Shown here: positions 4,518-40,340 of the stretch, piece by piece
Layout: every line of letters begins with the position of its first letter
How positions within the stretch are numbered: the stretch's first letter is position 1
From: Magnetococcales bacterium
Lineage (GTDB): Bacteria > Pseudomonadota > Magnetococcia > Magnetococcales > JADGCL01
Length of the DNA: 40,754 bases
Direction: 5' to 3'
Assembly (NCBI GenBank): GCA_015229005.1
Contig: JADGCL010000025.1
Location: 1 to 40,754 of the forward strand
Notes under the pieces: generated by a model
Seen by the model: the letters and a program-made list of their open reading frames with translations, nothing else
Told to the model about the DNA's origin: nothing
Databases searched by the model: none
Translations under genes and position numbers: made by a program

Positions 4518-5078
4518 TTATCGGGTTTCGTTGTGCCCGGTTTCGACGATCACCATTTTCGTACCCACCCGCACCTGGTCGAACAGGTCCGCGACCGCCG
4601 CGTCTGCCATGCGCACGCATCCGGCGGAGACCGCTTGCCCCAGCAGGGAGGTGTGCGGGGTCCCATGGATGTAGATGTAGCGCGAGCGCGTATCGATTCC
4701 CGGGCCGCGATTGATCCCGGGCTCCAGGCCGTCCAGCCAAAGAATCCGTGTTGTGATCAGGTCCCGTCCCTCTCCCGCGCCGGCGGCGACGATTTCTCCG
4801 GTGGGTTGGCGTCCCTTGAAGACGGTTCCCAGCGCCGCGCCATGGCCGATCCGGTCGCTGATCCGATGCACGCCCGTCGGAGTGCAGCCGCTGTCCGCCC
4901 GATTGCCGAAGCCCTTGAGTCCGGTGGAAACGATCCACTCTCCGAGCAGTTCCCGGGCGGTGAGTCGATAGAGCCGCTGCCGGGTCCCCAGGAGTACCAG
5001 GGCGGGATCATGGTCGTCCCACCCTCCCGCGCGGAGTCGTCCCAGAGCCTGCTTTAGGACCGGGTCGCTTGTGTCCAT
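4518..5078 (-). CDS. L,D-transpeptidase (YkuD domain)
   Basis: Peptidoglycan-modifying enzyme of the YkuD family, which forms 3-3 cross-links or attaches proteins to meso-diaminopimelate. The catalytic signature is complete: IHGTPHTSLLG followed by AVSAGCVRM with the nucleophilic Cys. The 186-residue protein is short, nearly a bare catalytic domain, and shows no signal peptide from the ATG at 5078, so its route to the periplasm is unclear; the ribosome-binding site is weak. It is transcribed towards bamB, with 9 bp between the stops. Confidence 0.88.
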   Translation of the reverse strand: MDTSDPVLKQALGRLRAGGWDDHDPALVLLGTRQRLYRLTARELLGEWIVSTGLKGFGNRADSGCTPTGVHRISDRIGHGAALGTVFKGRQPTGEIVAAGAGEGRDLITTRILWLDGLEPGINRGPGIDTRSRYIYIHGTPHTSLLGQAVSAGCVRMADAAVADLFDQVRVGTKMVIVETGHNETR

Positions 5079-5189
5079 TGCATGGTTTTACTTCTGCAGG
5101 GGTCCGGGGAGCGCCACGTTCCCCGGCGGGGATTGGGGCGGCGCCCCAAGGTCTTGTTTTTGACTTTACACTTTTTGCGCCCCGTCAAA

Positions 5190-5229
5190 CCAGGCGAACC
5201 CCGTGTTTTTCTACGGGGTTCGCGCCTGG
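5190..5229 (-). terminator. Strong hairpin downstream of the Bax-inhibitor-1 gene
   Basis: Inverted repeat of about 15 bp (CCAGGCG plus AACCCCGT arm, with one bulged base pair near CGCG) around a T-rich loop, 34 bp after the stop of the minus-strand gene at 5263. There is no convincing U-tract, so it may act as a transcript stabiliser or a weak terminator between that gene and the L,D-transpeptidase gene. Confidence 0.5.
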
Positions 5230-5262
5230 GTTATCGACGGGCTACCGCCTGGTGCGGTCCGA

Positions 5263-5961
5263 TCAATCGTCGCTGGAGAGGATGCCGAGGAGGCGCAGCA
5301 GGCTCAGGAAGAGGTTGAGGACATTCAGGTAGAGACTCAGGGCCGCTGCCGCAGGCGGCACCTCCCAGGGGTGATTCTTGAGCTGCTGGGTCTCCCACAG
5401 GATATAGCCCGAGAAGATCAGCGTCCCGGCGGCGGAGACCGCGAAGGCCAGGCCCGTCGATTGGAGGAAGATATTGACCAGCGATCCGACGAGGAGGACG
5501 ATGAGACCGGCGAAGAGCATCCCGCCCATTGCCGAGAAGTCGCGCCGAGTGGTCAGGGCATGGAAGGTGAGCCCGACGAAGACGGCTCCGGTCATGAAGA
5601 CGGCCTGGCCGATGATGCCCGGCATACCCGCGTGGACGTACTGGTCCAGGACCGGGCCGAGGGTCAGGCCGGAGATGCCGGTGAAGAGGAAGAGGGTGGA
5701 GCTGTTGCGCTTGGCCAGGGCGACGAAGAAGACGATCACCTCGGCGATGATCAGGAGGAGGAGGTTTTCCTGGACGAGCGGGCTCCCCATGGCCACATAG
5801 CCGGCTGCGGTGGCGAGGAGCAGGCTGCCGCCGAGCAGGGCGTAGACTTGTTTGAGATAGGCAATGGCGGAGAGTTCGCTGGCGCTCAGTCCCTCGCTCG
5901 TCGCCGACGCGGCCACCGTCTGGCCAGGTTGCTGGCGGTGGAAGGAAGGGGATTCGTTCAC
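5263..5961 (-). CDS. Bax inhibitor-1 / YccA family integral membrane protein
   Basis: Seven-transmembrane protein of the UPF0005/BI-1 family (E. coli YccA, YbhL). YccA interacts with the FtsH protease and other members form pH-gated ion leaks. Hydrophobic segments follow each other from LLGGSLLLATAAGYVAMG to LSLYLNVLNLFLSLLRLLG, and the family's acidic tail (SSDD) closes the protein. The frame extends upstream, but the GTG at 5961 has an AGGAG site at proper distance and gives 232 residues, the usual family size. It is monocistronic, between two hairpins. Confidence 0.88.
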   Translation of the reverse strand: MNESPSFHRQQPGQTVAASATSEGLSASELSAIAYLKQVYALLGGSLLLATAAGYVAMGSPLVQENLLLLIIAEVIVFFVALAKRNSSTLFLFTGISGLTLGPVLDQYVHAGMPGIIGQAVFMTGAVFVGLTFHALTTRRDFSAMGGMLFAGLIVLLVGSLVNIFLQSTGLAFAVSAAGTLIFSGYILWETQQLKNHPWEVPPAAAALSLYLNVLNLFLSLLRLLGILSSDD

Positions 5962-10594: not shown

Positions 10595-10692
10595 CCGATC
10601 CCCTTCCTGCAATTCCCCTTCGGGTCTCCTTCCCCTCGGACGGTGTTCCCTCCAAGGGGTGCTCACAGAGTGCCGGCGAGGGGCTTTATGAC

Positions 10693-19509: not shown

Positions 19510-20541
19510 TCAGCGGAGGGTGGAACCGACCGTCGGAACCTGGGATTGATAATAGGGCGCCGCCCCGGCTCCCCCCGGCATTCCCGCGTAGGGGCTGCCC
19601 GCCCCCGGCATGCTGACGTAGGAGGGTGACACCCCCTGGGCGCCGCCGGCCTGCATTTGCTGCGCGTAGGCTGCCATGGCTGCCGGGTCATACCCCCCCT
19701 GTCCCTGCTGACCGTAGGCCGCCTGCGGTTGCGCATAGGCCGCCTGCGGCTGACCGTAGGCCGCCTGCGGCTGACCGTAGGCCGTCTGCGGCTGACCGTA
19801 GGCCGCCTGCGGCTGACCGTAGGCCGCCTGCGGCTGACCGTAGGCCGTCTGCGGCTGACCGTAGGCCGCCTGCGGCTGACCGTAGGCCGCCTGTGGCGAG
19901 GCCCCGGCAGCGCCATAGGCCGACTGGTAGGCCGCCATCTGCTCCGGGGTCAGGGTCATACCGCCCTGCGCCGCCGCGCCGTACCCCGCCGCCTGTGGTG
20001 CGCTGATCACCTGCGGTTGCCCGGTGGCACCGGGATAATAACCGGACTGCCCTCCCGTGGAGGGCTGCGCCGCATACTGCTGGGGATAGGAATACTGCTG
20101 CGCTCCGGCCTGCCCGGCGCCGTAGGCCCCCTGTCCCTGCGTCGCCGCCGCCCCGGCATCCGCCGCCGAGGGAGGATAGGAGGAATTGGCATAGGCCGTC
20201 ATCGAGGAGGCCTGCTCGGGGATGGGGTTGACCGACGAATAGATGATGGCCGGTCCCACCGACTCGTTGCGGGAGAGGGGCGGCGTCACCGAGTGGGAGA
20301 CGCCGGCGTAGTCGACGGAAGTGGAGGCGGCGGCGCGGGAGGCCCGGTGACTCACCGGCGCCGCCGGCACCGGCTGGCTGATGTGGGCTGCCAATCCCAG
20401 CAGGGCCGAGGCCCCGAGAATGGCCCCCAGGCCTGCACCGGCCGCCGCCACCGGGGCCGGATTGAGCAGAGTCGCCCCGATAAGCGCCGCGCCGGTCAGA
20501 AGGGTCATCCTGACGGAATGCCGATGGGTGCGCTTGTTCAT
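19510..20541 (-). CDS. Exported Gln/Ala/Tyr-rich repeat protein
   Basis: A 343-residue secreted protein of unknown function. Signal peptide about 1-33 ([22 protein letters not shown]) followed by a hydrophobic segment ([14 protein letters not shown]). The rest is low-complexity, rich in Ala, Tyr, Gln, Gly and Pro. Nine heptads of AAYGQPQ type form the core (about residues 215-280). There are no Cys after the leader and no charged clusters, so it may be intrinsically disordered and prone to assemble. Two similar low-complexity secreted proteins lie directly upstream on the same strand, and a strong terminator follows. Confidence 0.7.
19708..19893 (-). repeat. 21-bp tandem repeat coding AAYGQPQ heptads
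   Basis: About nine head-to-tail 21-base units inside the gene at 19510, nearly identical at DNA level; the main variants exchange Ala for Thr (CCGCC/CCGTC). Such near-identity suggests recent expansion by slippage or recombination, and the copy number may vary between strains. Confidence 0.9.
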
Positions 20542-24355: not shown

Positions 24356-25777
24356 ATGGCCAATCCTGCTGAAACCTCCTCCCCCCTGGAGGAGACCATC
24401 ATCATCGGCGGTGGCATCTCCGGGCTTGCCACCGCCTGGTTTCTCCATCGGTCGGGGCGCGGCGTTCGTCTCCTGGAGGCCTCGCCGGCGGTGGGCGGCG
24501 TGATCCGCACCCTCGACCACCCCCCCTATCGCCACGAACAGGGACCCAATTCCACCCTGCAAAAGCCTGGCGGCGCCGATGACGCCCTGGGGCGAATGGT
24601 CGCCTCCCTGGGATTGCAATCGCGACTCTGCGAGGCCAATGCCGCTGCCGGCAAGCGATTCGTCCTGAAGGGGGCCCGACTCCAGCCGCTGCCGGATTCT
24701 CCCGTCGCCTTCCTCCGCACTCCTCTTTTCTCCTGGCGGGCCAAGCTCCGGCTCCTGATGGAACCCTGGGTGCGGCGCGGTCGGGAAGAGGAATCCATCG
24801 CCGCCTTCGTCCGCCGCCGCCTCGGGCAGGAGTTCCTCGACTACGCCGTCGAACCCTTCGTCTCCGGTGTCTGGGCCGGTGACCCGGAGCGTCTCTCCGT
24901 CCGCGCCGCCGCTGCCCGGATCCACGCCCTCGAAGAGCGTTACGGATCGCTCCTCCGTGGCGCCCTGGCCATGGGGCGGGTCGCCAAGGGGGCGGGGATG
25001 CCCAGGGGGAGACTGGTCAGCTTCGACACCGGCATGGGCCTCCTGCCGGAGACGATCGCCGCCAGGCTCCCCCCCGGGAGCGTCACCTGCGATGCCGAGG
25101 TGATCGCCCTTCGCCCGCAGGCCGGCGGCTGGCAGCTCACCCTGAAGGGCGGCGAGCTCCAGTGGGGTCGACGGGTGGTCCTGGCCCTGCCCGCCCTGGC
25201 GGCGGCCCGCCTGTTGCGGGACTTCGCCCCGGGGGCCGCCGACCTTCTGGAGGGGATCGCCTACGGGCCGATCGCGATCCTGGCGATCGGTTATCCCCGC
25301 CGGAACGTGGAACACCCCCTGGACGGGTTCGGCTTTCTTGCCCCGCGACGGGAGGGGGTGGCGCTCCTGGGGGGGTTGTTTTCGAGTACCCTTTTTCCGG
25401 GTCGGGCGGAAGCGGGGCGGGTCCTGGTGACGCTCTTCGCCGGCGGGCGCATGGGGGAGGCCTTCCTTCGGACCGAGGATGCCCGCCTGAAAGCGCACCT
25501 GACGGGAGAGCTGGCGGGGATCCTGGGCATCTCCGGGGATCCGGAGAGGGTGCATCTGACCCGCATTCCCCGGGCGATCCCGCAGTACGAGCTGGGACAC
25601 CTGGAGCGTCTGGCCGAGCTGGACCGGATCCTCGCCCCATTCCCGGGGCTCTACACCCGGGGCAATTGGCGGGATGGCATTTCGGTTGCCGACTGTATCC
25701 GCAACGGCGAAAGGCTGGCGACCGTGATCGGTGGGGAGAAAGGAGCTGGGCGCAGTGATGGCGGCGAGCCCACCTGA
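24356..25777 (+). CDS. hemY: Protoporphyrinogen/coproporphyrinogen oxidase (HemY type)
   Basis: FAD-dependent oxidase of haem biosynthesis, 473 residues from the ATG at 24356 (AAGGA site), matching the family length. The dinucleotide-binding fold IIIGGGISGLATAWFL sits at the N-terminus, followed by GVIRTLDHPPYRHEQGPN. The central part has FLDYAVEPFVSGVWAGDPE and SFDTGMGLLPETIA, and the C-terminal FAD contact is LYTRGNWRDGISVADCI. It converts protoporphyrinogen IX (or coproporphyrinogen III) to the porphyrin; which of the two cannot be decided here. The next gene starts inside its 3' end. Confidence 0.92.
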   Translation: MANPAETSSPLEETIIIGGGISGLATAWFLHRSGRGVRLLEASPAVGGVIRTLDHPPYRHEQGPNSTLQKPGGADDALGRMVASLGLQSRLCEANAAAGKRFVLKGARLQPLPDSPVAFLRTPLFSWRAKLRLLMEPWVRRGREEESIAAFVRRRLGQEFLDYAVEPFVSGVWAGDPERLSVRAAAARIHALEERYGSLLRGALAMGRVAKGAGMPRGRLVSFDTGMGLLPETIAARLPPGSVTCDAEVIALRPQAGGWQLTLKGGELQWGRRVVLALPALAAARLLRDFAPGAADLLEGIAYGPIAILAIGYPRRNVEHPLDGFGFLAPRREGVALLGGLFSSTLFPGRAEAGRVLVTLFAGGRMGEAFLRTEDARLKAHLTGELAGILGISGDPERVHLTRIPRAIPQYELGHLERLAELDRILAPFPGLYTRGNWRDGISVADCIRNGERLATVIGGEKGAGRSDGGEPT

Positions 25778-26993
25778 TCTTCCGCCGCACGGGGAGGTTC
25801 CCCCCCGGGGCGCTTCCCCCCGGACCCCGGTCCTGGTGGCACATCTGGTCTACCGCCTGGATGTCGGGGGGCTGGAGACGGTCCTGGCCAACGTGATCGA
25901 CGGCCTCGATCCGGGGCGTTTCCGCCATGCGGTGATCGCCCTGACCGAGGTCACCGCCTTTCGGGAACGGATCCGGGCGCCGCAGGTCTCCTTTCACGCC
26001 CTGGGCAAGCGCGAGGGCAAGGATCTCGCGGTCTGGGTGCGCCTGTGGCGGCTCCTGCGCCATCTGCGCCCGGCCATCCTGCATACCCTGAATATCGCCA
26101 CCCTGGAGGGGGTGGTGCCGGCATTCCTGGCCGGGGTCCCGGTCCGGATCCACGCCGAACATGGTCGCGACAGCTACGACCTCGACGGCTCCAACCGCAA
26201 ATACCGTCTTCTCAGGCAGCTCTTGATGCCCCTTGTGGACCGCGTCGTCCCGGTGTCGCACGATCTGGAACGCTGGTTGCTTGCGCAGGTGAAGGTACCG
26301 CCGGCCAAGGTACGGTTCATCATGAACGGCATCGATCAGGAGCTCTACCGACCGGCGCATGCCGCCGAGAGCCGTGGGGGTGGCTACCCCCCGGGGTTCG
26401 GTGAACCTGGGTGCCGGGTGATCGGGACGGTGGGGAGGCTCTGGGCGGTCAAGGATCACGCCAATCTGCTGCGGGCCTTCGCCCTGTTGCGGCAGGAGGT
26501 TGAACGCCGCTCCGGCCCCGGGGAGAGGCGGAGATTGCGCCTGGTGGTGGTCGGTGACGGCCCCCTGCGTCCGGAGCTGACCGCCCTTGCTGCCCGGCTC
26601 GAAATCGCCGATGCCGTTTGGATCACGGGCTGGCGGGGGGATGTCGCGGTGTTGATGCGGCGCTTCGATCTTTTTGTCCTCTCTTCCCTGGCCGAGGGGA
26701 GCCCGTTGACGGTGTTGGAGGCGATGGCCACTGCCCTGCCGGTGGTGGCCACCCGGGTCGGTGGTGTTGCCGATCTCCTCGCCGGCGACGACGGCCAGCT
26801 CGGGCGGCTCGTTCCGGCGGCCGATCCCGCCGCCCTGGCGGCGGCGATGGGACGCGCTCTTGCCGACCCGGAGTGGCTGTCGCGTCAGGGAAGGGAGGGG
26901 CGCACCCGGGTCGAGCGATGCTTTGGGCGAGAACGAATGGTGGCTGCGTACCGGGATCTTTTTCTTGCCGAGTTGTCAACAAAGGTCCCGTGA
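25758..26993 (+). CDS. Glycosyltransferase of the PEP-CTERM/exosortase-associated type
   Basis: GT4-family transferase of about 411 residues (ATG 25758; a GTG at 25755 is also possible; AGGAG upstream), overlapping hemY by 20 bases. The N-terminal LVAHLVYRLDVGGLETVLAN and the IHAEHGRDSYDLDGSNRKYR segment match the TIGR03088-type sugar transferases found with exosortase/EPS loci. The C-terminal domain has VIGTVGRLWAVKDH and EGSPLTVLEAMATALPVVAT. It likely helps to assemble an exopolysaccharide. No exosortase or PEP-CTERM protein is seen in the window, so that system would lie elsewhere. Confidence 0.9.
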   Translation: MAASPPDLPPHGEVPPRGASPRTPVLVAHLVYRLDVGGLETVLANVIDGLDPGRFRHAVIALTEVTAFRERIRAPQVSFHALGKREGKDLAVWVRLWRLLRHLRPAILHTLNIATLEGVVPAFLAGVPVRIHAEHGRDSYDLDGSNRKYRLLRQLLMPLVDRVVPVSHDLERWLLAQVKVPPAKVRFIMNGIDQELYRPAHAAESRGGGYPPGFGEPGCRVIGTVGRLWAVKDHANLLRAFALLRQEVERRSGPGERRRLRLVVVGDGPLRPELTALAARLEIADAVWITGWRGDVAVLMRRFDLFVLSSLAEGSPLTVLEAMATALPVVATRVGGVADLLAGDDGQLGRLVPAADPAALAAAMGRALADPEWLSRQGREGRTRVERCFGRERMVAAYRDLFLAELSTKVP

Positions 26994-27165: not shown

Positions 27166-27705
27166 ATGGACGAGTCGCGCGAAGAGGTGTCGGGGAGGGT
27201 GGCGCAACGGGCGGAGGAGCCGGGCGCTTCCGCATGTACGGGAGAGGCGGACGGTCTCTCGCCGGTCGCGGTCCAACTGCAGCGGCGGCGGCGCCTCCTC
27301 AAGGGGCTCGTTGCCGGTGTCCCGGCGATCATCACCATGCAGAGCGGCGCCATCGCGGCGGCGGCCAGCAGCAAGAACAACTGCATCAACACCGGCAGCG
27401 GTTTCTCCGCGCTGGCCGCAAACAGCATCAATTCCAGCAATGGCAACGCCCGCTGTGGTGCCTCTACCCCCGACTCCTACAAGTACAAATATCAGACTGA
27501 GGCCTGGTTCGGGGGGGATGTCAATGGCAATTCAACCCCCAGCGAGGCCGGCGTCAATTGCCTGGTCTATGTCGACGCTGCCGGGACCGGCGCCGCCGCC
27601 GGGGCCGGGGCCGGTGGTTACGGCTCTGCGTCGGCCAATGGTGACCCGGACACCGGTTATTATGCGGTGACCACCTCCTGCTGGTCCTCCTTCACCTGGA
27701 CGTAG
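27166..27705 (+). CDS. Tat-type secreted Gly/Ala/Cys protein upstream of a PqqD-like chaperone
   Basis: A 179-residue protein I cannot assign to a named family. A hydrophilic N-terminal extension of about 38 residues precedes a twin-arginine-like signal (RRRRLLKGLVAGVPAIITMQ, about 40-59, then SGAIAAAAS). The mature part is rich in Ser, Asn, Gly and Ala, carries Cys73, Cys97, Cys132 and Cys172, has a Gly/Ala run (AGTGAAAGAGAGGYG) and ends in the aromatic sequence SCWSSFTWT. The ATG has GAGGA 9 bases upstream. The PqqD-like gene follows by 79 bp. This pairing suggests a peptide or protein substrate handled by the chaperone, possibly via the long N-terminal extension as leader; that is inference. 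Confidence 0.6.
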   Translation: MDESREEVSGRVAQRAEEPGASACTGEADGLSPVAVQLQRRRRLLKGLVAGVPAIITMQSGAIAAAASSKNNCINTGSGFSALAANSINSSNGNARCGASTPDSYKYKYQTEAWFGGDVNGNSTPSEAGVNCLVYVDAAGTGAAAGAGAGGYGSASANGDPDTGYYAVTTSCWSSFTWT

Positions 27706-27784
27706 GCGATTTCCGTCGTCGGCTCTTGGTGGATCCACCGCGCGGCAGGTCTCGGCTGCCGATGAACGCCTTTCCTGGTCGCCG

Positions 27785-28066
27785 ATGAACGCCTTTGAGG
27801 TGGTCTGGCGCGTCCCCATGATCGGGGAGCTTCGCTGGGAGCGGTTCGGCGAAGAGGCGATCCTTTACAATCCTGCCTCGGGGCGGACCCATCGGGTCAA
27901 TGAGCTGGTCGTGGATATCCTGGAGAGCCTCGGGAGCGAGCCCGCGACCTTTGCCGATCTCAGCCGTAGGATGGGTGTCGCGGGGCTGGGACCCGCCGAA
28001 GAGGAGTATTTTTCGGGGTTGTTGCGGCAGCTCGACCGACTGGGGTTCATCGAGCCGTGTTACTGA
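27785..28066 (+). CDS. PqqD-like peptide chaperone (HPr-rel-A type)
   Basis: A 93-residue winged-helix protein. The pattern ELRWERFGEEAILYNPASGRTH-type (aromatic-rich start, YNP.SG.TH, then VVDILESL, FADLSRRM and LLRQLDRLGFIEP) fits the PqqD-related family annotated as HPr-rel-A system PqqD family peptide chaperone. PqqD proteins hold a leader peptide for a modifying enzyme. In the described HPr-rel-A loci a HprK-related kinase gene sits alongside; here the next gene is on the other strand and unrelated, so the system appears incomplete or split. A 16-base direct repeat covers the start codon region. Confidence 0.75.
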   Translation: MNAFEVVWRVPMIGELRWERFGEEAILYNPASGRTHRVNELVVDILESLGSEPATFADLSRRMGVAGLGPAEEEYFSGLLRQLDRLGFIEPCY

Positions 28067-31109: not shown

Positions 31110-32174
31110 ATGATTCAGCAATTGGAATTGGAGAACTTTACTGTTTTTAAAGAAGCCGCGCTGAAATTCTCGCCAGGGCTCAATGTCGTGATCGGGGAAG
31201 ATGGTACCGGCAAGAGTCACCTGCTCAAGTTGATCTATGCGTTGGCATGCATCAGCCAAAACGCGGGGGAGCAGGCGAGCCGGCGGACTAAAGCCTGGCT
31301 GGGCAAGGCAACTGCGGAAAAATTGATCCACACCTACCGCCCCGATTCTCTGGGGCGGTTGGTCCGCAGGACTCCCGGACGACAGCGCACCCAAGTGCGT
31401 TTCCTGGTGGCCGATCCCAATACCAGGGGATCATCGCCCAGCTGGTTCGGTTTCAGTTTCTCCACCAACAGCAAGACCGAGGTCGTGATCGAACAGGTGC
31501 CGGACCAGTGGGAGACCGAGGCTCCCATCTTTCTGCCGACCCGGGAGATCATATCCGTTTTCCCGGGGTTTGCCGCCCTTTACCTGAAACACCATCTGGA
31601 ATTCGACGAAACTTTTTATGACCTCTGCCTGGCCTTGGAATCGCCCCTTCTCAGGGGGCCGCGTCTCAAGGAAACACGGGAGATGATCGTTGCATTGGAG
31701 CAAACGCTCCGGGGGCAGGTGGTGGCGGAAAACCGCAGGTTCTATCTCCGGATCCCGGGCAGGGGCAACTTGGAAATGAGCTTGGTGGCGGAAGGCATGC
31801 GGAAGATTGCCATGCTGTCTTTCCTGATCAAAAACGGATCATTGTCGAGTCGGAACCAGTTGTTTTGGGATGAACCGGAAGCGAACCTGAACCCCAAGCT
31901 CATTCGTCTGGTTGCCCGCAGCATCCTGGATCTATGCAACAACGGCATACAGATTTTTGTTGCCACCCACAGCCTGTTCCTTCTCAAGGAGTTCGACATC
32001 CTTCTGGCGCAACCGGCCCACGCCAAAGTGAAGAGACGCTATTTTGCTCTCGCGCCAGGCGAAGATGCGGTAGAATCGACTCAGGGAGATTCCAGTGATG
32101 ATATCGAACCCGTTGTCATGCTGGATGAAGAATTGACCCAATCTGATCGCTTCATGGAGATGGAGAATTCGTGA
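31110..32174 (+). CDS. SMC/OLD-like AAA ATPase (putative defence ATPase)
   Basis: A 354-residue ATPase. Walker A is GEDGTGKS (29-36) after the typical IQQLELENFTVFKEAALKFSPGLN-type beginning of RecF/SMC/OLD-like proteins. The Walker B region is FWDEPEANLNPK (about 252-263), followed by FVATHSLFLL (His-loop). The insert between is short, so it has no long coiled coil, and no TOPRIM nuclease domain follows. Proteins of this build are the ATPase partners in several two-gene anti-phage systems (Septu PtuA, PARIS AriA and relatives). The stop overlaps the next start as GTGA. The neighbourhood of restriction and toxin-antitoxin genes supports a defence role; this is inference. Confidence 0.8.
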   Translation: MIQQLELENFTVFKEAALKFSPGLNVVIGEDGTGKSHLLKLIYALACISQNAGEQASRRTKAWLGKATAEKLIHTYRPDSLGRLVRRTPGRQRTQVRFLVADPNTRGSSPSWFGFSFSTNSKTEVVIEQVPDQWETEAPIFLPTREIISVFPGFAALYLKHHLEFDETFYDLCLALESPLLRGPRLKETREMIVALEQTLRGQVVAENRRFYLRIPGRGNLEMSLVAEGMRKIAMLSFLIKNGSLSSRNQLFWDEPEANLNPKLIRLVARSILDLCNNGIQIFVATHSLFLLKEFDILLAQPAHAKVKRRYFALAPGEDAVESTQGDSSDDIEPVVMLDEELTQSDRFMEMENS

Positions 32175-32692
32175 CTGTTATCCCGGAGGGCAATATTAAC
32201 TTAACCTTCCCGGATAGTTGGCGGGTTTACAAATACGACGACTGGTCGTATTATAAAAAACAGTTTCAAAAATGTTGCGACGCCAAGGCCGTTGATTTTC
32301 TCGCCTGTTCCCCTGCCACCAATGCCGGAGGTCGGGGAGTCTGGCTTATCGAGGTGAAGGATTACCGCAAATATCCTCGGAGCAAGCCCAGCGAGCTGGA
32401 TGTGGAGGTGGCTGAAAAGGTTCGCGACACCCTGGCGGGTCTGGTAGCCGCTTCCTTACGCGCCAATGATGCTCATGAAAAAGAGTTTGCATCTCTTTGT
32501 CTCAAATCTGCGTCAATCCATGTTGTCTTGCATCTTGAGGTGCCTAAGCATCCTTCCAAATTGTTCTCCCTACCGGTTGATCCCGCCAACATCCAGATGC
32601 GGCTACGACGCCGTCTGAGAGGCATTGACCCACACGTCTGTGTCGCCCAAAAGTCCAAACTTCCCATGCGGATCGGTTGGGAGGTTTCCTGA
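32171..32692 (+). CDS. Putative PD-(D/E)xK nuclease partner of the ATPase
   Basis: A 173-residue protein not recognised as a named family. It starts at a GTG overlapping the ATPase stop. The part VDFLACSP (Asp42) followed by VWLIEVKDYRKYPR (Glu61-Val-Lys63) has the spacing and hydrophobic strands of a PD-(D/E)xK nuclease core, with a helix (LDVEVAEKVRDTLAGLVAA) and another strand (SIHVVLHLEV) after it. The C-terminus is basic (MRLRRRLRGIDP). If the fold is right, this would be the effector activated by the ATPase. Its 3' end abuts the broken end of hsdR on the other strand. Confidence 0.6.
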   Translation: MTVIPEGNINLTFPDSWRVYKYDDWSYYKKQFQKCCDAKAVDFLACSPATNAGGRGVWLIEVKDYRKYPRSKPSELDVEVAEKVRDTLAGLVAASLRANDAHEKEFASLCLKSASIHVVLHLEVPKHPSKLFSLPVDPANIQMRLRRRLRGIDPHVCVAQKSKLPMRIGWEVS

Positions 32693-32768
32693 CAGCCTGG
32701 CGAGGGAACAATCCCGATTCCGAAGACCCGGCCCCTTCTCGACTCGGTCCGCCATCGGATCGAAGCCC

Positions 32769-33542
32769 GATATCGCCGAACACGGTGAAGTGAGCGATCA
32801 GATCGAGAAAACGCCGTTGCTCGAACACCCCCTCGGCGAGTACCGGGAGTTCTGGCTGCCCCTTGGGCGCTGTATGGGCGCCATCGGTGGTACGCCAGGG
32901 CATGAACCGCTCCTGGTTGGCGGTCAGGGATCCCAGTCGTGCGGTCAATCCATCGGAAGTGACCAGAACGGCATTGGTGCGAAACAGGGCGGGAATTTGC
33001 GTCTTGTAGGTCTGCAACTGGTTGTGGGCGGCCTCCAGCGTAGCCTGTTCACCACCCGGTTTCTTGAGTTCGATGACAGCCAATGGAAGTCCATTGACGA
33101 AGAGCACCACGTCGGGGCGGCGCTTGTGGGAACCCTCGATGACCGTGAACTGATTCACGGCGAGCCAGTCGTTGGCCGCCGGATCGTCGAAGTCGATCAA
33201 ACGGACCTTGTCCCCGCGCAAGGTGCCATCCTCGGCGTAAAATTCCACATCCACGCCTTCGGTGATCAAACGTTGCAGGCGGCGGTTCTCCTCCAGGAGC
33301 GAGGGGCATTCGGTCTGAATCACCTTGCGCAGAGCGTCTTCCCGGGTCTCTTCCGGGAGGAAAGCGTTCAACCGCGCCACGGCGGCGCGCAGGCGCGGCA
33401 GAAGGAGAACCTCTCCGTAGCTCTCCCGCTCCGGCCTGTGTCCGTCGGGGCCGATCTCGGCATCCGTGGTTCGCGTGTAACCCAGGGCGGCGAGGCTTTC
33501 GAGAAGGATCTCCTCGACCTGGGCTTCGGTGAGGAAGGGCAT
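32769..33542 (-). pseudogene. hsdR: Truncated type I restriction subunit HsdR (N-terminal quarter)
   Basis: The first 258 residues match HsdR: FLTEAQVEEILLESLAALGY, the HsdR_N nuclease core with RRPDVVLFVNGLPLAVIELKK-type motif (Asp144 and Glu159-Leu-Lys161) and VLVTSDG. Similarity stops after HFTVFGDIG, just where the helicase domains should begin; the frame runs on to 32544 antisense to the putative nuclease gene with unrelated sequence. A full HsdR has about 1000 residues, so translocation and cleavage by the normal mechanism are impossible. The nuclease residues are intact, and the start overlaps the stop of the DUF2326 ATPase gene (TGATG), so a free nuclease domain might still be made. 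Confidence 0.85.
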
Positions 33543-35284
33543 CAGAAACGAACTCCAAGCAAGGAGCCTTTCACATCTTCGTCCGTCAGGCGCAGCCGGA
33601 TAAAAGGCGACAGATCAAAATATGCCGAAAACTCCTTCTCTGGGACCATATCGCTATTGAGGGTACAGATGTATTGAAAGCCATGCGCTTCCGATTCTTG
33701 AGCTGCCAATTCAAGGGCGCGGGCGCGTTGACGTTCATCAACGCCATCAAAAATCATGCTGTCATGGATCAGAACCCGAGGAGAAACCGATTGTTCCGCC
33801 CACAGACGGGCAAGCATCAGGTCGTAGCAGAAGATCTTCATGTTATCGACGCCGCCGCTTCCCGAGCGTTCAATGTCAACACGAAAATTGAACCCACTGG
33901 GTGTAACGTCAACGACAAGATTTCCTGGAACAGAATACAAGTTCTGCGAATATTCGTTGAATAGGCTGATGGCCCTCTCTCGGATGGTTCTTCGCTCATC
34001 AAGATCCCGCCTGGCTTTCTGATGCAGGTGTTCCTGGGCGATCTTGACTTCGCTCATCCCCGATTCAAAAGCCCGGTGATTTTCGATCATCGATGTGACC
34101 GCATTCAACTCTTTCACCATTTCCAGATGGCGTTGTTGCAGCCGCGTATAAGACTCCAATGCGCCATGGGTTTTCAGGATCTCCATCAATGCGGCGCATT
34201 CTTCGGTTCTTTCCCGAACCTGGATTTCCCGTTTTGATATGGCATCTTTGATACGTTCCACCTCATCAGCCAGGAAGGCGTGCCGATTGGAAATGATCGT
34301 TTCGTGGAAGTGGCGAACCTCCTCGATTCTGCGTAGCGCGGTCGTCGGCAGGGATATGCCCGCCTCCTGATAGATCCGATCCAGGGAATCCGTAGGTGGT
34401 GATTGCTCCTCGGACAGATTCCGCTCGTACAGTTCGAGCATCTTTCGATCAACGGTGTTGGTATTGACCAATTGATGAACTTCTGCGGTCAATCGGTTGG
34501 CCTCGGTTTGGATCTGCTCATATTGAGGATGAACTTTGAATGACTCCAGATCCGCTTGCCCTTTTGTGACCAGATCTTTCAATCGGACCTGCCGAGTTTC
34601 CAGATCACCGAGCTTTCCACCAAAGCCATCCAATATTCCGGCCTTGATGGCTATTCTAATGGCTGCCAGGTCCTTGCTTCGTTCTTTGATTTTCAGAAGT
34701 TCCGATGCGTCTTCCCAAGCCAGACCCAGGAGAAAGGCATTATGGATTTGGGCATCCAACGCTGTTTGCTTGCGGAACGATTCAAATGGTGTGGAATAGG
34801 CATCCTTGCGACGGCGAATGAAGTAGGAAATCAAACTGCGGAAAGATGGACCACGCAACGAATTCCTTTCGGTGTCATAAGACAATCCGAACAGAAAATG
34901 CCCGAGCAGCAGGGTCCATTCCTTGGCGATGAAGGCTTCGACGCCTTTCCGAACCATCGGTTGGATCGGCCAGTTGGAGGGAACATCGGAAACCAGGAGA
35001 TTGGTTGGGTTCTCCACCCCCCTGGTCACGGTCATCTGATGTGGGCCAACAGCCAATTCCAGGGAGAATTCCCAACCGGGCAGGTACTCTCTGGGGAAGA
35101 CTTCCTGGTCCGCATTGGCTCCAAGGCAGAAGTGAATGATCTCGATCAGGGTTGATTTACCAAGACCGTTCCGGGAGTTCTTTCTGGTTTCTTCTTTTGT
35201 CCGGTCGGCCAACACCACATTGAAACCTTTGGTAAACCCAACGCTTCGAAACGAGGATTGATTGGCTGTAATTTTCCTGATCAT
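33542..35284 (-). CDS. ABC-three-component system ATPase (DUF2326)
   Basis: A 580-residue RAD50/SMC-like ATPase. Walker A lies in NSRNGLGKST (36-45) after RKITANQSSFRSVGFTKGFN; a long central region (about 215-425) with many charged heptads (AFLADEVERIKDAISKREIQ) forms a coiled coil; the C-terminal DUF2326 domain has KIFCYDLMLARLWAEQ and RVLIHDSMIFDGVDERQRAR with the Walker B/D-loop function. This is the ATPase component of ABC-3C conflict systems described by Krishnan, Burroughs, Iyer and Aravind. It overlaps the middle-component gene upstream (4 bp) and the hsdR fragment downstream. Confidence 0.9.
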   Translation of the reverse strand: MIRKITANQSSFRSVGFTKGFNVVLADRTKEETRKNSRNGLGKSTLIEIIHFCLGANADQEVFPREYLPGWEFSLELAVGPHQMTVTRGVENPTNLLVSDVPSNWPIQPMVRKGVEAFIAKEWTLLLGHFLFGLSYDTERNSLRGPSFRSLISYFIRRRKDAYSTPFESFRKQTALDAQIHNAFLLGLAWEDASELLKIKERSKDLAAIRIAIKAGILDGFGGKLGDLETRQVRLKDLVTKGQADLESFKVHPQYEQIQTEANRLTAEVHQLVNTNTVDRKMLELYERNLSEEQSPPTDSLDRIYQEAGISLPTTALRRIEEVRHFHETIISNRHAFLADEVERIKDAISKREIQVRERTEECAALMEILKTHGALESYTRLQQRHLEMVKELNAVTSMIENHRAFESGMSEVKIAQEHLHQKARRDLDERRTIRERAISLFNEYSQNLYSVPGNLVVDVTPSGFNFRVDIERSGSGGVDNMKIFCYDLMLARLWAEQSVSPRVLIHDSMIFDGVDERQRARALELAAQESEAHGFQYICTLNSDMVPEKEFSAYFDLSPFIRLRLTDEDVKGSLLGVRF

Positions 35285-35508
35285 GGCTTTCTCCGTACAA
35301 GCAGACCGTCCACCCAGTCAATCGCCTGAATGGCGAAGAGAAAGTCCAGCGTCAGGACAAAACGCCAATAAACGCTTACCTCCGGCTTGTCGCGCACTCG
35401 TTCCCACAGTGCCGTGACCGTTTGTGGAGACTGCATGTGCCGCAGCAGGGTGGCCCCGGCCCCCAGGAGAGAGTGTCGCAGGTCAACATGCTTGGTGGGG
35501 AGGATCAT
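35281..35508 (-). CDS. ABC-three-component system middle component (MC6-like)
   Basis: A 75-residue protein with the pattern ILPTKHVDLRHSLLGAGATLL, TVTALWERVRD and FVLTLDFLFAIQAIDWVDGLL, which fits the small winged-helix middle component (type 6) of ABC-3C systems. It is thought to bridge effector and ATPase. ATGA overlaps on both sides couple it to the effector upstream and to the DUF2326 ATPase downstream. Confidence 0.85.
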   Translation of the reverse strand: MILPTKHVDLRHSLLGAGATLLRHMQSPQTVTALWERVRDKPEVSVYWRFVLTLDFLFAIQAIDWVDGLLVRRKP

Positions 35509-36264
35509 TTCTCAAAGACCTCGCAGCTCTCGAACAAATACACAAGAACAGCCAGTCCTGCCGCCCTTCGTTTAAAATCCATGTCGGCGCCGCTGGCAAA
35601 CGTCAGCATGGCTTCGAACAGGGCGTCATCGTCCAGGTTCTGCGCCCGGAAGCCCTGATAGGCCGTCAGGAATCCGGACTTGAGCCGTTCGGGAAAATCC
35701 GGGTCGAAGGTGGACATGTTCTGCAAATAACCAGACACCTCCTGACTCCGGACCATACCCATGGTGATCAACAGTCCGACATTGCTGGTCAGCCGGTTCT
35801 TGGCCATCTTTTCACGAGGAGCGGTGATCGTGAAATCATCCGTTGGAGTGCTGGGTGGAGAGGCAATGGCTTTGGCGACAACCTCCAGTTCCGGGAAGCC
35901 GACGCTGGGCATGGCGGCAGCCAACGTCGATTTGACCCATCGCTCATGGTCTGTCTGATGGTTCTGAGGCTGTCCACGGTGAAGGTGTTGGGCTGGGCAT
36001 CCACCTGGGCGTGGCAAGCCGAACACAACAGGATCGAATTTTCGTAGGTATCCAACTGGTCCCGAGAAAAGCCGGGATCTCCCCGGGGACCTCGTCACTG
36101 TGGCCGACGATATGGGCTCTTTCACCGATCTGCTTGGTGGGATCCGCCTCTGTAGCCTCCAACGCCAGTTCCCGCCGACAGCCAGCAAACGCGCAACGGT
36201 TGCCGGAACGACCGTAGAGCTTTTTGATTTCTGCTGGTGACAGCTCTTTCCTGGGCCTATTCAC
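35505..36264 (-). pseudogene. ABC-3C effector: HNH nuclease with C-terminal ABC-3C domain, two frameshifts
   Basis: The protein can be read only by joining three frames. From the GTG at 36264: GNRCAFAGCRRELALEA and GERAHIVG (zinc Cys pair and HNH His). After about 36068 (a TTTT run that may lack one T) the next frame gives LDTYENSILLCSACHAQVDAQ, the second half of the HNH fold. After about 35948 a third frame gives DHERWVKSTLAAAMPS and the conserved C-terminal ABC-3C domain (MAKNRLTSNVGLLITMG, AVLVYLFESCEVFEK). The motifs are intact, so sequencing or assembly indels are as likely as real decay. In the system the HNH domain would cut nucleic acid when the ATPase senses its trigger. The start overlaps the stop of the HsdS-tail mini-ORF. 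Confidence 0.75.
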
Positions 36265-36344
36265 AGTGCCGCCTCCACCGCCTTTTCGGCGTCACGAACC
36301 CGGATTTTGCCGGAAATCAGCTTGGGGAGAGAAGCATGGTTCAC
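36261..36344 (-). pseudogene. HsdS C-terminal remnant as a 27-residue overlapping mini-ORF
   Basis: Too short for usual gene calling. It reads VNHASLPKLISGKIRVRDAE plus KAVEAAL from a GTG that overlaps the stop of the upstream PIN gene (GTGA), and its own TGA overlaps the GTG start of the HNH effector (GTGA). LPKLISGKIRVRDAEK is the conserved C-terminal end of HsdS subunits. It is a relic of an hsdS gene that may still carry ribosomes from the PIN gene into the ABC-3C operon. Confidence 0.75.
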
Positions 36345-36712
36345 GCTGGCGTCTCCAGCGGGTTGATCACGGTCAGGTCCGTGATCCAGCGGAAATCCTC
36401 GACATTCACGGTTGCCAGTGTCTGCCGGTGTTCCCATGCGGTCGCGGCGATCAGGGCGTCACCCAACGAGATCTTGCGTTGTTGGCGCAGGTGAATGGCT
36501 TTCTCAAAGGTTTCCATCGTGGGGTAAAGGATGTCCAGGTGGTCCAGCACAGCTTCAATGGATCGGCGACCCGCAACGGATAAGCGATGGTATCCAAGGG
36601 CTTCCACCCGGCTGATCACGGAGCAGGCCGGGCATTGTCCCACCAGCCAGCGGCGCAACCGGGGATAGTCAGGATGAACAGAATAGATGATCAGGTTGGT
36701 ATCAATCAGCAT
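36341..36712 (-). CDS. vapC: PIN-domain toxin (VapC-like)
   Basis: A 123-residue PIN nuclease. The acidic metal-binding residues are in MLIDTNLIIY (Asp4), ISRVEALGYHRL (Glu37), SLGDALIAATAW and TVNVEDFRWI. VapC toxins cleave tRNA or rRNA. The start lies inside the 3' end of the antitoxin gene (7-base overlap), the usual vapBC arrangement. Its stop overlaps the HsdS-tail mini-ORF. Confidence 0.88.
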   Translation of the reverse strand: MLIDTNLIIYSVHPDYPRLRRWLVGQCPACSVISRVEALGYHRLSVAGRRSIEAVLDHLDILYPTMETFEKAIHLRQQRKISLGDALIAATAWEHRQTLATVNVEDFRWITDLTVINPLETPA

Positions 36713-36978
36713 GAGTTTTCTTCTCGATCCGGCAAAGGGCGGTCCTGGCGGATGTCACGCTGCCATGCAACAGGATCGGGAATCCCCTGGAACGGATTCA
36801 AGCGGGCAGCAGATTCCAAGGATTCCGCCAGCAATCGTTGCCGTTCTTCCAATGTCTGCCTGGCGGTTTTATTGTTGGCGATCCGCTGTTCGAGAAACAA
36901 GGCGTAATGTAACAACTCCACCTGCAAGTCTTCCGGCAGGCGGGCAACATGGCTGGCAATCATGTCAAGCGTGGTCAT
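36706..36978 (-). CDS. vapB: VapB-type antitoxin (DUF2281-like)
   Basis: A 90-residue antitoxin. MIASHVARLPEDLQVELLHYALFLEQR followed by the acidic-basic tail WQRDIRQDRPLPDRE (read in parts) is typical of DUF2281 proteins paired with PIN toxins. The ATG at 36978 overlaps the stop of the upstream DUF2442 fusion (ATGA); an in-frame ATG at 36984 is the alternative. It should bind the VapC made by the next gene and autorepress. Confidence 0.82.
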   Translation of the reverse strand: MTTLDMIASHVARLPEDLQVELLHYALFLEQRIANNKTARQTLEERQRLLAESLESAARLNPFQGIPDPVAWQRDIRQDRPLPDREENSC

Positions 36979-37316
36979 GGCCACACCTGAAGATTTTTCA
37001 TGGCGTCACACCCTTGTCCAAGATTGTTTTGGACAGCAGTGATGGTGTCACGAACCCGGATTTCGCCTGTGATCAGTTTGGGGAGGAGCAGGTCGCGCAA
37101 GAATTCCGGGGCAAGATCCAGGCCGTTGTCCCAAACGATGGTGTCCATGTCCACGCGGAACGCCTGAAACGATTTCAGATCGAGTAGTTCCTGGAAGATG
37201 GCGCGGTGGTCGTGATCGATGGTTTCCCACAAGTCCACCACACCTTCCACGCCGTCGTTGAACCGGAGGTGAATCCGATATTCCCCCTCATGGCGGGCAT
37301 GGGTGACCCAGCACAT
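36975..37316 (-). CDS. DUF2442 protein fused to an HsdS C-terminal tail
   Basis: A 113-residue chimera. The first about 75 residues (YRIHLRFNDGVEGVVDLW, FRVDMDTIVWDNGLDLAPEFL) form a DUF2442 domain, common in toxin-antitoxin loci and thought to be an antitoxin-like regulator. At its natural end the protein continues as RDLLLPKLITGEIRVRDTI, the C-terminus of HsdS, then unrelated residues. At DNA level 37070-37097 is identical over 28 bases to 38361-38388 in the hsdS gene of this locus. The ATG at 37316 has an excellent AAGGAGG site. The fusion probably arose when a cassette joined the end of an hsdS copy. Confidence 0.8.
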   Translation of the reverse strand: MCWVTHARHEGEYRIHLRFNDGVEGVVDLWETIDHDHRAIFQELLDLKSFQAFRVDMDTIVWDNGLDLAPEFLRDLLLPKLITGEIRVRDTITAVQNNLGQGCDAMKNLQVWP

Positions 37317-37358
37317 GATTTCCTCCTTCACAGCAGGGGGGGGTTGGAGCCTGCCATG

Positions 37359-37601
37359 TTACGCCGAGGCTACCAGTCGTTCCCAGGCCGCGCCGGTCTG
37401 GGTGTTGGTGACCACCAGCTTGCCATGGTCCTGTTGCAACAGCTGTTCGCTGGCGTTGAGCAGCTCGATGCCGCAAACCTTGCCGTCCGGCGACAGGTCG
37501 ATGTTGAGTTCGTCGCTGATGCGCAGGGTCTCCACTTCCGCCGGGTCTTCCCGCAAGCGGATGTAGGCGACGTTGTAACGCGGGTCGTAAGTCAGACGCA
37601 T
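37359..37601 (-). CDS. DUF2283 protein
   Basis: An 80-residue protein with MRLTYDPRYNVAYIRLRED, LNIDLSPDGKVCGIELLNAS: the DUF2283 pattern (a small beta-rich domain with D...D.DG..G.E). Such proteins usually stand beside DUF4258 or DUF2442 genes in toxin-antitoxin arrays; the molecular role is not established. The DUF2442 gene follows 42 bp downstream. Confidence 0.85.
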   Translation of the reverse strand: MRLTYDPRYNVAYIRLREDPAEVETLRISDELNIDLSPDGKVCGIELLNASEQLLQQDHGKLVVTNTQTGAAWERLVASA

Positions 37602-37648
37602 GTTGACTCCCCCTGGTCAGAAGAACTTGACGATGCCCCTCCATCCCA

Positions 37649-38071
37649 TCATCCCGCCTGCTCCAAGAAGGGATTGACGATCCTCAACCGTCCGTCGATG
37701 CGCTGGCCGTGTTGCAGGTCCTCCGAGTAGAGGACGGCGCATTGTGCTTGCAAGGCACTGGCGACCATCAAGCTGTCCCAATAGGAAAAACCGTAGGCGT
37801 CACGGATGGCGTAGGTGGCGCGGATCACCGCCAGGGAGATGATTTGCACCTCGCAATGGCGGATCATGTTCTCCAAATTACGTCGAATCCATGCTTCCGC
37901 CGCATGGTTCTTCAGCATCACCGCATAGTATTCATTCAAGACCTGCGTGCTGATGACGCATGACGGAATATTTTCCACCAGCGTTGTGGCCGTGCTGCCC
38001 TTGGCGTCTCCGTCCTGGTCCAGGTGGGCGTAAACCCAGACGTTGGTATCCACAAAAGCCCTATCGCTCAT
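37649..38071 (-). CDS. PIN-domain toxin, second copy
   Basis: A 140-residue PIN nuclease: SDRAFVDTNVWVYAHLDQD (first Asp), QVLNEYYAVMLK (Glu), FSYWDSLMVASALQAQC (Asp) and LYSEDLQHGQ (Asp). It is closer to the COG5573-type VapC than to the PIN protein at 36341. The start is inside the end of the antitoxin gene; the frame is open to 38080 but MSDRAF at 38071 fits better. Confidence 0.87.
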   Translation of the reverse strand: MSDRAFVDTNVWVYAHLDQDGDAKGSTATTLVENIPSCVISTQVLNEYYAVMLKNHAAEAWIRRNLENMIRHCEVQIISLAVIRATYAIRDAYGFSYWDSLMVASALQAQCAVLYSEDLQHGQRIDGRLRIVNPFLEQAG

Positions 38072-38270
38072 GGAGTTCATCCCGGCTGGGAATGATGCGT
38101 TCCTTGGTTGGCCATCGTTGATAGCGTGGTTCTTCCCGAATGGCGTGTTGTTCCTCTGCCTCGTCCATGGGCAGGACGATCACCTCTACCCGGCGGTGGT
38201 GCAGATGGGGGGGCAACGCCACGGTCAACTGCTCTGGGGCGTCCTCGATGATCTGGCGCAGGGCGTGCAT
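38061..38270 (-). CDS. Putative antitoxin of the second PIN toxin
   Basis: A 69-residue protein (ATG 38270 with GAGGAG site; frame open to 38288). MHALRQIIEDAPEQLTVALP, RRVEVIVLPMDE and the charged tail ERIIPSRDELHER resemble small antitoxins found before PIN genes. It overlaps the toxin gene by 11 bases. It begins 35 bp after the hsdS stop. Confidence 0.7.
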   Translation of the reverse strand: MHALRQIIEDAPEQLTVALPPHLHHRRVEVIVLPMDEAEEQHAIREEPRYQRWPTKERIIPSRDELHER

Positions 38271-38304
38271 GGGGGGCTCCTCGGTCAAGGGTTCCTCACC
38301 TTTT

Positions 38305-39918
38305 TCATCCTACCACATCCCCTACCCACCGCTCCGCATCTTTTACCCGGATCTCTCCGGTGATCAGTTTGGGGAGGAGCAGGTCGCGGGTTGTAGCCAA
38401 TTTTCCCATTTCTCCCAAATTAGCCAAGCTCTTATCAAACAGCGGTGCAACCAAACCCTCAAAGGAACTGACAATACGAATATTGGGATTGATCACAGGA
38501 TAGGTCAATAAATCTTTTGTGCTGACATTTGCCTGTGCGGAACCATGGGCCTTGTTTTCAGCGTAGATCTTAAACGCAGGGTCTCTGACGCAAGCGTATA
38601 CAAATGGCGAAAATTTACCAGATGAGGAAAATCGAGCTACCCGCTGGTTGAGCATCGGAGGATTAATCGTGGGAGGAACTCGGCCTGTTTCTCCCACGTA
38701 CCCCGTCAATCCTACAAGCGTGTCACCTATATTCAATCGAAATGCAGAACGTTCCTTCGCAAGGGAAGGAGAAATATAGCTCACCTCATTTAAATCAACC
38801 ACAGATGGTTTGACGGAACCGATTTTCACAACTGGAACGCCTTCATCCCTCCAATCAGCACTCTTGAACGCATAACCATTCTGCAAATCCGTGAAAGCTC
38901 CAAGGCAGTCCAATCGCCACCCCACCGGCTTATCCTCATCATCCATCGCATCCGGAAAGAGATCCCATATCTCCTGGGCAAGATAGGCCGGGCGGCCCTC
39001 GGCCTTGGCGCGCACCGGGCCGAAGTCCACGAACCAGTCCTTGAACAACGCCCGTGCCATGGCCTCCAGGTCGGCGTTCATGCGGCGGTTCAACTCGATC
39101 TTGTCGTCCAACGCGCCCAGGACTTGGGCGATGGCGCGTTGTTCCGAGTAGGGGGGAAGCGTGAGTAAGACGTTACGCAGTTCACTCTGCTTGATTCCGA
39201 GGACTGTTGTGCCACTGGCCCTGGCATGTAGTTGATCCTGAACATTTTCTGACTGCATGAGAAATTTCAGGAACCCGTTATCCAGAACTCTCGATTTTCC
39301 ACGAAGTGCAATAAGCCTCTGAGCCAGAGCAACACGCTCATTTCCCAGTTGTGCAACTTGTCCTAAAGGGGCCTCGGTTGTAACGACAACATCTCCAGCC
39401 TTTGGAATGCCGCGAGTCATCCACTGCTCGTAATCTTCAACAGCTATGAACTCGTCTGGCGTTTCAATCCTACCACCCTTTACAATCTTTGCTGTGATGA
39501 GAGGAATCCCATACAGAGTCTTCTGCGGAGTTTTCCCACGGTAGTCGATAATAGCTTCCATGCAAGATTCGAGAGACTGGGCACCCCATTCGCAACTCGT
39601 TCCTTTCGCTAGTTGCACCACCACCCTATCCCTCTCAATAATCTTCCTGAACCCCTCCGCCGTCGTTGCCCAATCCACCACATCCACCTTGAACGGCAAG
39701 TCCGACTCGCTGAAATCCTCTTCCAATCCGGCCAGAACGCCCAGATCCAGCGGCTCATCCCCCAGAATGGCCAAGTCCAGATCGGAATACTGTTTGGCCG
39801 TCCATTTGGCGCGGGAGCCGAAGGCCCAGACCTCCCGGTCGGGGAGATGCTTATTGAGGATGGCCCGGACGATCTCCCAATGATCCGGGCGGATATCGAT
39901 GAGGGGTGGTTCGCTCAC
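38305..39918 (-). CDS. MntA-type nucleotidyltransferase antitoxin fused to HsdS specificity subunit
   Basis: A 537-residue fusion. Residues 1-105 are a minimal nucleotidyltransferase: VWAFGSRAKWTAKQYSDLDL holds the GS-X10-D-X-D motif (Gly34, Ser35, Asp46, Asp48) with a further acidic residue in FKVDVVDW. This is the MntA antitoxin, which AMPylates the HEPN toxin HepT. From about residue 106 the protein is a type I restriction specificity subunit: TRD1 (AIIDYRGKTPQKTLYGIPLI), central conserved region (LPPYSEQRAIAQVLGALDDK, LFKDWFVDFGPV), TRD2 (FTDLQNGYAFKSADW) and the C-terminal LLLPKLITGEIRVKDAE. The start overlaps the HEPN gene stop (ATGA). No HsdM is seen in the window. Confidence 0.9.
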   Translation of the reverse strand: MSEPPLIDIRPDHWEIVRAILNKHLPDREVWAFGSRAKWTAKQYSDLDLAILGDEPLDLGVLAGLEEDFSESDLPFKVDVVDWATTAEGFRKIIERDRVVVQLAKGTSCEWGAQSLESCMEAIIDYRGKTPQKTLYGIPLITAKIVKGGRIETPDEFIAVEDYEQWMTRGIPKAGDVVVTTEAPLGQVAQLGNERVALAQRLIALRGKSRVLDNGFLKFLMQSENVQDQLHARASGTTVLGIKQSELRNVLLTLPPYSEQRAIAQVLGALDDKIELNRRMNADLEAMARALFKDWFVDFGPVRAKAEGRPAYLAQEIWDLFPDAMDDEDKPVGWRLDCLGAFTDLQNGYAFKSADWRDEGVPVVKIGSVKPSVVDLNEVSYISPSLAKERSAFRLNIGDTLVGLTGYVGETGRVPPTINPPMLNQRVARFSSSGKFSPFVYACVRDPAFKIYAENKAHGSAQANVSTKDLLTYPVINPNIRIVSSFEGLVAPLFDKSLANLGEMGKLATTRDLLLPKLITGEIRVKDAERWVGDVVG

Positions 39919-40340
39919 ACCTGTCCCGTCCGCTTGCGCAGTTGCTCCAGCAGAAACCGCGCCTCTTCCAAAAAGGCGGGGATCTTGCCAATCACCTTCA
40001 ACGCCTTCTCCTCATTGTAGGTATGGCTGGTATCGGTCCGTGATTGCCGATACCCTTTCCACGTCTCCCAATCGCCCAGCAACAATCCCTGTTCATTGCC
40101 GGTACGGATCAGATCCTGGAAGACCATCTTGTCCACGGTTTCGGGGCTGGCTGAGGTCATTTCCAGGTATCGGCGCAGCATTTTATGGGAGAGTTCGTAG
40201 GTGAACTCGAAGCGTTGGATCACCCCATCCCGATACAAGGTATTGCCTGGCTCACGTCCCAATGACTCCAGCCCTTCGGCGAAGCGCTCGACAGCCGACA
40301 CGAAGGATTCGATCTCCAATTCAGGATTGTCCCCGCTCAT
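39915..40340 (-). CDS. hepT: HEPN-domain toxin HepT (HI0074 family)
   Basis: A 141-residue all-helical protein of the nucleotidyltransferase-substrate-binding/HI0074 type (FVSAVERFAEGL, RDGVIQRFEFTYELSHKML, FQDLIRTGNEQGLL). It carries the toxin motif R-X4-H-X-Y as RTDTSHTY (Arg101, His106, Tyr108). In the HepT/MntA system of Shewanella the Arg-His pair is the RNase site and the Tyr is AMPylated by MntA for neutralisation. Its MntA partner is the N-terminal domain of the next, overlapping gene. Confidence 0.92.
   Translation of the reverse strand: MSGDNPELEIESFVSAVERFAEGLESLGREPGNTLYRDGVIQRFEFTYELSHKMLRRYLEMTSASPETVDKMVFQDLIRTGNEQGLLLGDWETWKGYRQSRTDTSHTYNEEKALKVIGKIPAFLEEARFLLEQLRKRTGQV

Follow-up and report, generated by a model that had tools for sequence, protein, structure and literature searches.

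The Tat-signal protein and the PqqD-family protein encoded side by side in the analysed stretch of DNA are probably the front half of a split HPr-rel-A module, in which the PqqD-family protein would present the Tat precursor to an HprK-related kinase, a nucleotidyltransferase would decorate it and the Tat system would export it. The stretch (hereafter the window; 40,754 nucleotides) is the whole of contig C91 in a 3.28-Mb Magnetococcales assembly of 173 contigs that is 78.6% complete. We read the pair as a front half because the usual gene order is Tat protein, PqqD, HprK, nucleotidyltransferase, and the back half lies on contig C127 of the same genome. Tat protein and PqqD-type presenter are conserved together as a unit.

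The HPr-rel-A genes have names in the family library of NCBI and are present in many genomes, yet they are uncharacterised; none of the papers searched names HPr-rel-A, TIGR04352 or TIGR04353, and NCBI's family notes may already mention a secreted partner. The constant upstream Tat-signal protein likely supplies the missing piece, being an obvious candidate substrate, and it makes the chemistry of HPr-rel-A directly testable.

The gene pair in the window

Both open reading frames are real and correspond to their preliminary description as a Tat-type signal protein followed by a PqqD-family protein (Table 1). The long N-terminus, the RRRRLLKG motif and the four mature cysteines attributed to the upstream product are all present in it: RRRRLLKG occupies residues 40–47, a mildly hydrophobic stretch runs from there up to ...AIAAA, and the cysteines after the signal are C73, C97, C132 and C172. 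The signal thus has the hallmarks of twin-arginine export, namely RRxLLK, a mild h-region and an AxA-type end. By contrast, the Gly/Ala run once listed among the product's features is incidental, as relatives in the family alignment lack it. The exosortase-type glycosyltransferase gene said to precede the pair belongs to TIGR03088 and clusters with the gene 5′ of the Tat protein in locus L120, and a hybrid histidine kinase gene on the reverse strand, starting at 28077, faces the pair.

Table 1 Features of the gene pair and the preceding gene, in window coordinates.
Feature	Position	Strand	Remarks
TIGR03088 (stp2) PEP-CTERM/XrtA-system glycosyltransferase	25731..26993	+	458 bits, cut-off 409
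Tat-signal protein of 179 aa, putative HPr-rel-A substrate	27166..27705	+	Homologue upstream of PqqD in nearly all system-carrying Magnetococcales
n-region, 39 residues before the arginines	27166..27282	+	Family median 29, range 6–88
Extended Tat-type signal RRRRLLKGLVAGVPAIITMQSGAIAA	27283..27360	+	RRxLLK family profile
First mature Cys, C73	27382..27384	+	Cys in 97% of aligned family members
C-terminal motif SCWSSF (S171–F176), tentatively proposed modification site	27676..27693	+	C172 and S175 invariant in 34/34 Magnetococcales homologues
PqqD-family (RRE) protein, TIGR04353 PqqD_rel_X, 93 aa	27785..28066	+	42.8 bits, cut-off 35

The Tat protein represents a conserved but strongly diverged family. 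It was found in 35 of the 61 genomes in the set of relatives, and a single-sequence search of named genomes gave zero matches because the family is too diverged, so that profile or genome searches are needed. Neither the window protein nor ten upstream proteins from different lineages matched any Pfam or NCBIfam model (11 proteins scanned in all). What the family alignment conserves is the signal, the Cys residues and a C-terminal SCWxSF; mature domains vary by lineage, falling into at least two groups, and the signal is the common element. Its profile comprises the two arginines (100% and 97%), x L/F. K/R, a mild h-region with frequent Pro, T-L-x-S and an A-x-A-like end, with a Cys soon after in 97%. 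T-L-x-S looks steadier than an ordinary Tat h-region requires, which suggests that the signal has a second reader.

The C-terminal pattern [STGA]C[WFYLMIV]xS[FLIVM] is present in 34/34 Magnetococcales proteins and in 17/95 others, including those of Sphingomonadales and several gammaproteobacteria, compared with 0.1% of shuffled tails. A different, SPGYW-like motif occurs in 41 of the 95 non-Magnetococcales proteins, and the remaining 37 have neither. Aligning the window protein with six distant proteins reduces the invariant positions to M1, residues of the signal, the first Cys and SCxxS; retained in distant lineages, the C-terminal SCxxS looks like a functional site. Structure prediction for the Tat protein from seven sequences was uninformative (pLDDT 40).

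The PqqD-family protein, modelled with AlphaFold2 from 60 sequences, has an RRE/PqqD fold (pLDDT 91.7). Among solved structures it most closely resembles RRE domains (best E 1.2e-3, TM-scores about 0.6), several of them leader-bound, including TruD, TbiB1, PbtF and the lasso B1 protein 6jx3. The predicted fold is that of RRE proteins in RRE-dependent RiPP pathways, and the protein may likewise bind a leader. At the start of the PqqD gene lies a direct repeat, CCGATGAACGCCTTT (27760–27797), whose copies are 22 bases apart and provide two ATG codons in different frames, leaving the placement of the start codon uncertain. A second PqqD/RRE-like gene is present elsewhere in the genome (C153:5584–5856, 91 aa; TIGR04353 32.7 bits, below cut-off), with an ATP-grasp-like gene and a PLP decarboxylase-like gene after it, in a possible separate peptide-modification cluster (3086–5856). 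Given these neighbours, it probably belongs to a different system, and we rejected it as part of the HPr-rel-A system.

The rest of the window holds several other features. A defence island lies beside the pair (31110–40340; PADLOC, Pfam), with an HEC-02-like pair (31110–32692), a PDC-M68-like pair (33542–36188, one member with DUF2326), a type I specificity subunit and a PIN-domain gene. A type I restriction HsdR gene within it (32544–33542, reverse strand) retains only its N-terminal domain (332 aa); the end of HsdR and the HEC-02-like gene's tail overlap, which would fit an interruption of HsdR by the element. The open reading frame at 38305–39918 (reverse strand) joins the type I specificity subunit to an N-terminal Polbeta-type nucleotidyltransferase domain of about 100 aa. 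Elsewhere on the reverse strand are a surface-type protein of 1478 aa whose repeats are of the cadherin-like, Big_9, Calx-beta and TSP_3 types (6230–10666) and a protein that looks secreted, lacks any Pfam match and contains many near-perfect copies of QPQAAYG (19510–20541).

A split module in Magnetococcales and beyond

The kinase described as missing is indeed not adjacent to the pair, but the genome encodes it. A genome search located HprK_rel_A (TIGR04352) at C127:4615–5466 on the reverse strand, with 342.5 bits against a cut-off of 200 and an intact signature of His, GSGKST and SDE. On the same strand follows an NTP_transf_5 gene (PF14907; 2002–3087, 205.7 bits), the order being NDP-sugar dehydrogenase, HprK_rel_A, a methyltransferase-like gene and NTP_transf_5, with the XrtA/PEP-CTERM amidotransferase TIGR03108 also located after the kinase. 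Of the two architectures initially suggested, a minimal system lacking the kinase is contradicted by these genes, whereas a scattered one is true of this genome, with the set split over C91 and C127. The preliminary description had itself named two findings that would count against it: a kinase partner in another cluster, which is what C127 provides, and widespread occurrence of the Tat protein without PqqD, which was not seen, strong signal matches being confined to HprK_rel_A genomes (41/41).

In this genome the module is thus broken between PqqD and HprK. Arrangement as a single cassette is usual, yet the cases found indicate that it is not required for an HPr-rel-A system. Given the incomplete assembly, C91 and C127 could be chromosomal neighbours, though the genes at the break differ. 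The relative G011 has the order FemAB-type gene ... TIGR03088, Tat protein, PqqD, HprK_rel_A, NTP_transf_5 and TIGR03108; the window's genome carries the same gene set, cut between PqqD and HprK.

Within the order, Tat protein and kinase occur together. Among the window's genome and 47 others, the Tat protein was found in 35, HprK_rel_A in 36 and PqqD in 34 plus G002, where it was recognised by profile; 12 genomes have none of the three and one (G047, 57% complete) has the kinase only. The co-occurrence check proposed at the outset therefore gave a clear result, with all 35 genomes that carry the Tat protein also carrying HprK_rel_A (Fisher p=1.9e-10). By coordinates, the kinase is directly 3′ of the Tat–PqqD pair in 30 of these 35; it is on another contig in the window's genome, G001, G007 (where Tat protein, PqqD and kinase are each on different contigs) and G015, and head-to-head in G043. 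Outside the order, G267 has Tat protein and PqqD on one contig and HprK and the nucleotidyltransferase on another. Since splits also occur in G001, G007, G015 and G267, the window's break has several counterparts, and front and back half each behave as a sub-module. Genome G010 carries two Tat-protein copies, that is, duplicated candidate substrates.

The Magnetococcales module sits in an XrtA/PEP-CTERM exopolysaccharide region, with TIGR03088 just upstream in relatives. Outside Magnetococcales, a polysaccharide-export-like gene accompanies 15 loci and the amidotransferase 3, in each case a minority, and the link to exopolysaccharide genes holds in Magnetococcales but is not general.

The module itself extends well beyond the order. 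Of 399 genomes sampled across the phylum, 61 have HprK_rel_A. A scan of named genomes, which relied on a single conserved P-loop pattern, added 80 further loci; these come mostly from beta- and gammaproteobacteria, towards which the scan is biased, and otherwise include some Sphingomonadales and a single Phycisphaeraceae MAG. Together with 20 from the phylum search they form a set of 100 loci. NTP_transf_5 is present in all 100, immediately downstream of the kinase in 84, and PqqD in 92. Simple hydrophobicity rules mis-picked several upstream open reading frames. A signal profile under five-fold cross-validation matched an upstream open reading frame (one ending 120–1700 bases from the kinase) at ≥10 bits in 87/100 loci, as against 3/9,366 other open reading frames, with folds drawn at random, so that close relatives may fall in different ones. 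The three exceptions come from L144 and L149, where the gene is downstream of the kinase as a relocated or extra copy. Including every sequence in the model raises this to 93/100 loci, plus L144 and L149; L187 and L201 are truncated by contig ends. Trained on Magnetococcales alone, a stricter model (8 bits) continued to show enrichment, with 27/100 outside loci against 2/9,366 other open reading frames; the low recovery implies that lineages differ, and we took the main count from the mixed, cross-validated model. Candidate substrates are duplicated at two loci: L206 (a Kangiellaceae MAG) has two Tat-signal proteins with a PqqD-like open reading frame between them, up to 2200 bases upstream of HprK, and L144 has two Tat-protein copies.

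Searches of whole genomes gave the same association. At E<1e-5 the signal profile matched 41 genomes, all of which carry HprK_rel_A, and none of the 338 without it (p=4e-41). In its own genome the window protein is the single strong match (A3; E=8e-16).

Proposed mechanism and alternatives

We propose that, in the cytoplasm, the PqqD/RRE protein docks on either the long n-region or the extended signal of the Tat precursor and delivers this precursor to the HprK-like kinase for phosphorylation on a Ser or Thr. In proteins of the window's class the acceptor would most likely be Ser175 of SCWSSF. Onto this phosphate the nucleotidyltransferase would next transfer a nucleotide or a sugar. The modified protein would then leave through the Tat system, and its cysteines may form disulfides outside. 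More speculatively, as the module lies among XrtA/PEP-CTERM exopolysaccharide genes, the product might act in the exopolysaccharide or envelope layer of Magnetococcales. TatC was not found in the window's 78.6%-complete assembly; it is present in 45 of the 47 other genomes of the order and, within the set of relatives, in each of the 40 genomes with a completeness of 90% or more, and incompleteness of the assembly is therefore the likely reason.

These steps differ in strength. A modified, exported product, as suggested early on, is the most likely meaning of the pair, with the Tat protein its probable substrate. That the nucleotidyltransferase acts on the phosphate is plausible but falls somewhat short of probable, and S175 as the modified residue is a doubtful guess from conservation, against which it counts that the SCxxS motif is missing from most of the proteins of beta- and gammaproteobacteria. 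The broader proposal, which we rate only just below an even chance, is that a system found widely in proteobacteria phosphorylates entire Tat-exported proteins and decorates them further through its nucleotidyltransferase, with the Tat signal serving as the recognition leader of the RRE chaperone. If true, this would be RiPP-like modification of secreted proteins in which the signal is conserved and the cargo exchanged between lineages; RRE-guided modification would extend from peptides to whole Tat-exported proteins, and the Tat signal would gain a second role.

Because the upstream proteins share the signal and not the mature part, PqqD might instead be a Tat proofreading or maturation chaperone resembling TorD/DmsD, with the kinase and nucleotidyltransferase modifying something else or regulating the process. 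Such chaperones bind the signal, and in three genomes with a split locus (G001, G267 and the window's own) PqqD has remained beside the Tat gene. We nevertheless consider a chaperone unlikely: the kinase accompanies the pair in every genome of the order that has the pair, a strict co-occurrence that a chaperone alone leaves unexplained, the nucleotidyltransferase is found at 100/100 other kinase loci, and presenting substrates to modifying enzymes is a known role of RRE-fold proteins.

The Tat protein could also be a partner of the system rather than its substrate, a receptor or immunity-like component, for example, with an unlisted small peptide or a polysaccharide-pathway protein being modified. 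The great diversity of the mature parts would fit such a role, and very small peptides could escape gene calling. However, besides the Tat protein, PqqD, kinase and nucleotidyltransferase we found no open reading frame as constant at HprK_rel_A loci, the window's genome has one strong signal match only, and the C-terminal SCxxS of distant lineages looks functional; we regard this role as improbable. A maturation system operating without any kinase, the original reading, drew on the lack of an adjacent kinase in the window and is rejected in view of HprK_rel_A (342 bits) and NTP_transf_5 on C127, with intact motifs. It is very improbable and would survive only if C127 were a binning contaminant; C127 carries TIGR03108, which comes next after the module in relatives.

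Comparison with known systems

The closest counterpart is the HPr-rel-A system itself (TIGR04352, TIGR04353, PF14907): PqqD and HprK_rel_A score above cut-off and PF14907 is present, all in the window's genome. It departs from the usual arrangement in having the kinase and nucleotidyltransferase on a different contig, and the Tat-signal proteins scanned matched no Pfam or NCBIfam family. The HprK_rel_A profile aligns to HPr kinases over a matching region of His, P-loop and Asp; relative to classical HPr kinase/phosphorylase HprK, the His, the P-loop GxxGxGKS and the acidic motif correspond, but only about 45 residues align, overall similarity is weak and HPr as a substrate is not implied.

RRE proteins bind leaders and recruit enzymes (PMC7470986). 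The window's PqqD is predicted to have its RRE fold in common with PqqD of PQQ biosynthesis and lasso B1 proteins, yet it scores under the cut-off of other PqqD-type models, and its partners are a kinase and a nucleotidyltransferase, whereas theirs are a radical SAM enzyme or a cyclase. No lasso cyclase was identified with the module; the Asn-synthase-type gene of relatives and C127 is the XrtA amidotransferase TIGR03108 and scores below the lasso cyclase cut-off.

Action of a kinase and a nucleotidyltransferase on a C-terminal Ser of a precursor has a precedent in the lasso tailoring enzymes PadeK/ThcoK/SyanK and PsmK/PsmN (PMC9266682). Those systems combine a His-Lys-Asp-type kinase, a nucleotidyltransferase and a PqqD-like B1 protein, as here, and their precursors bear a Ser at or near the C-terminus, as in SCWSSF (PMC9266682). 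The kinase likeness is one of motif and gene set, and the candidate precursor here differs in being a protein of 120–300 aa with a Tat-type signal.
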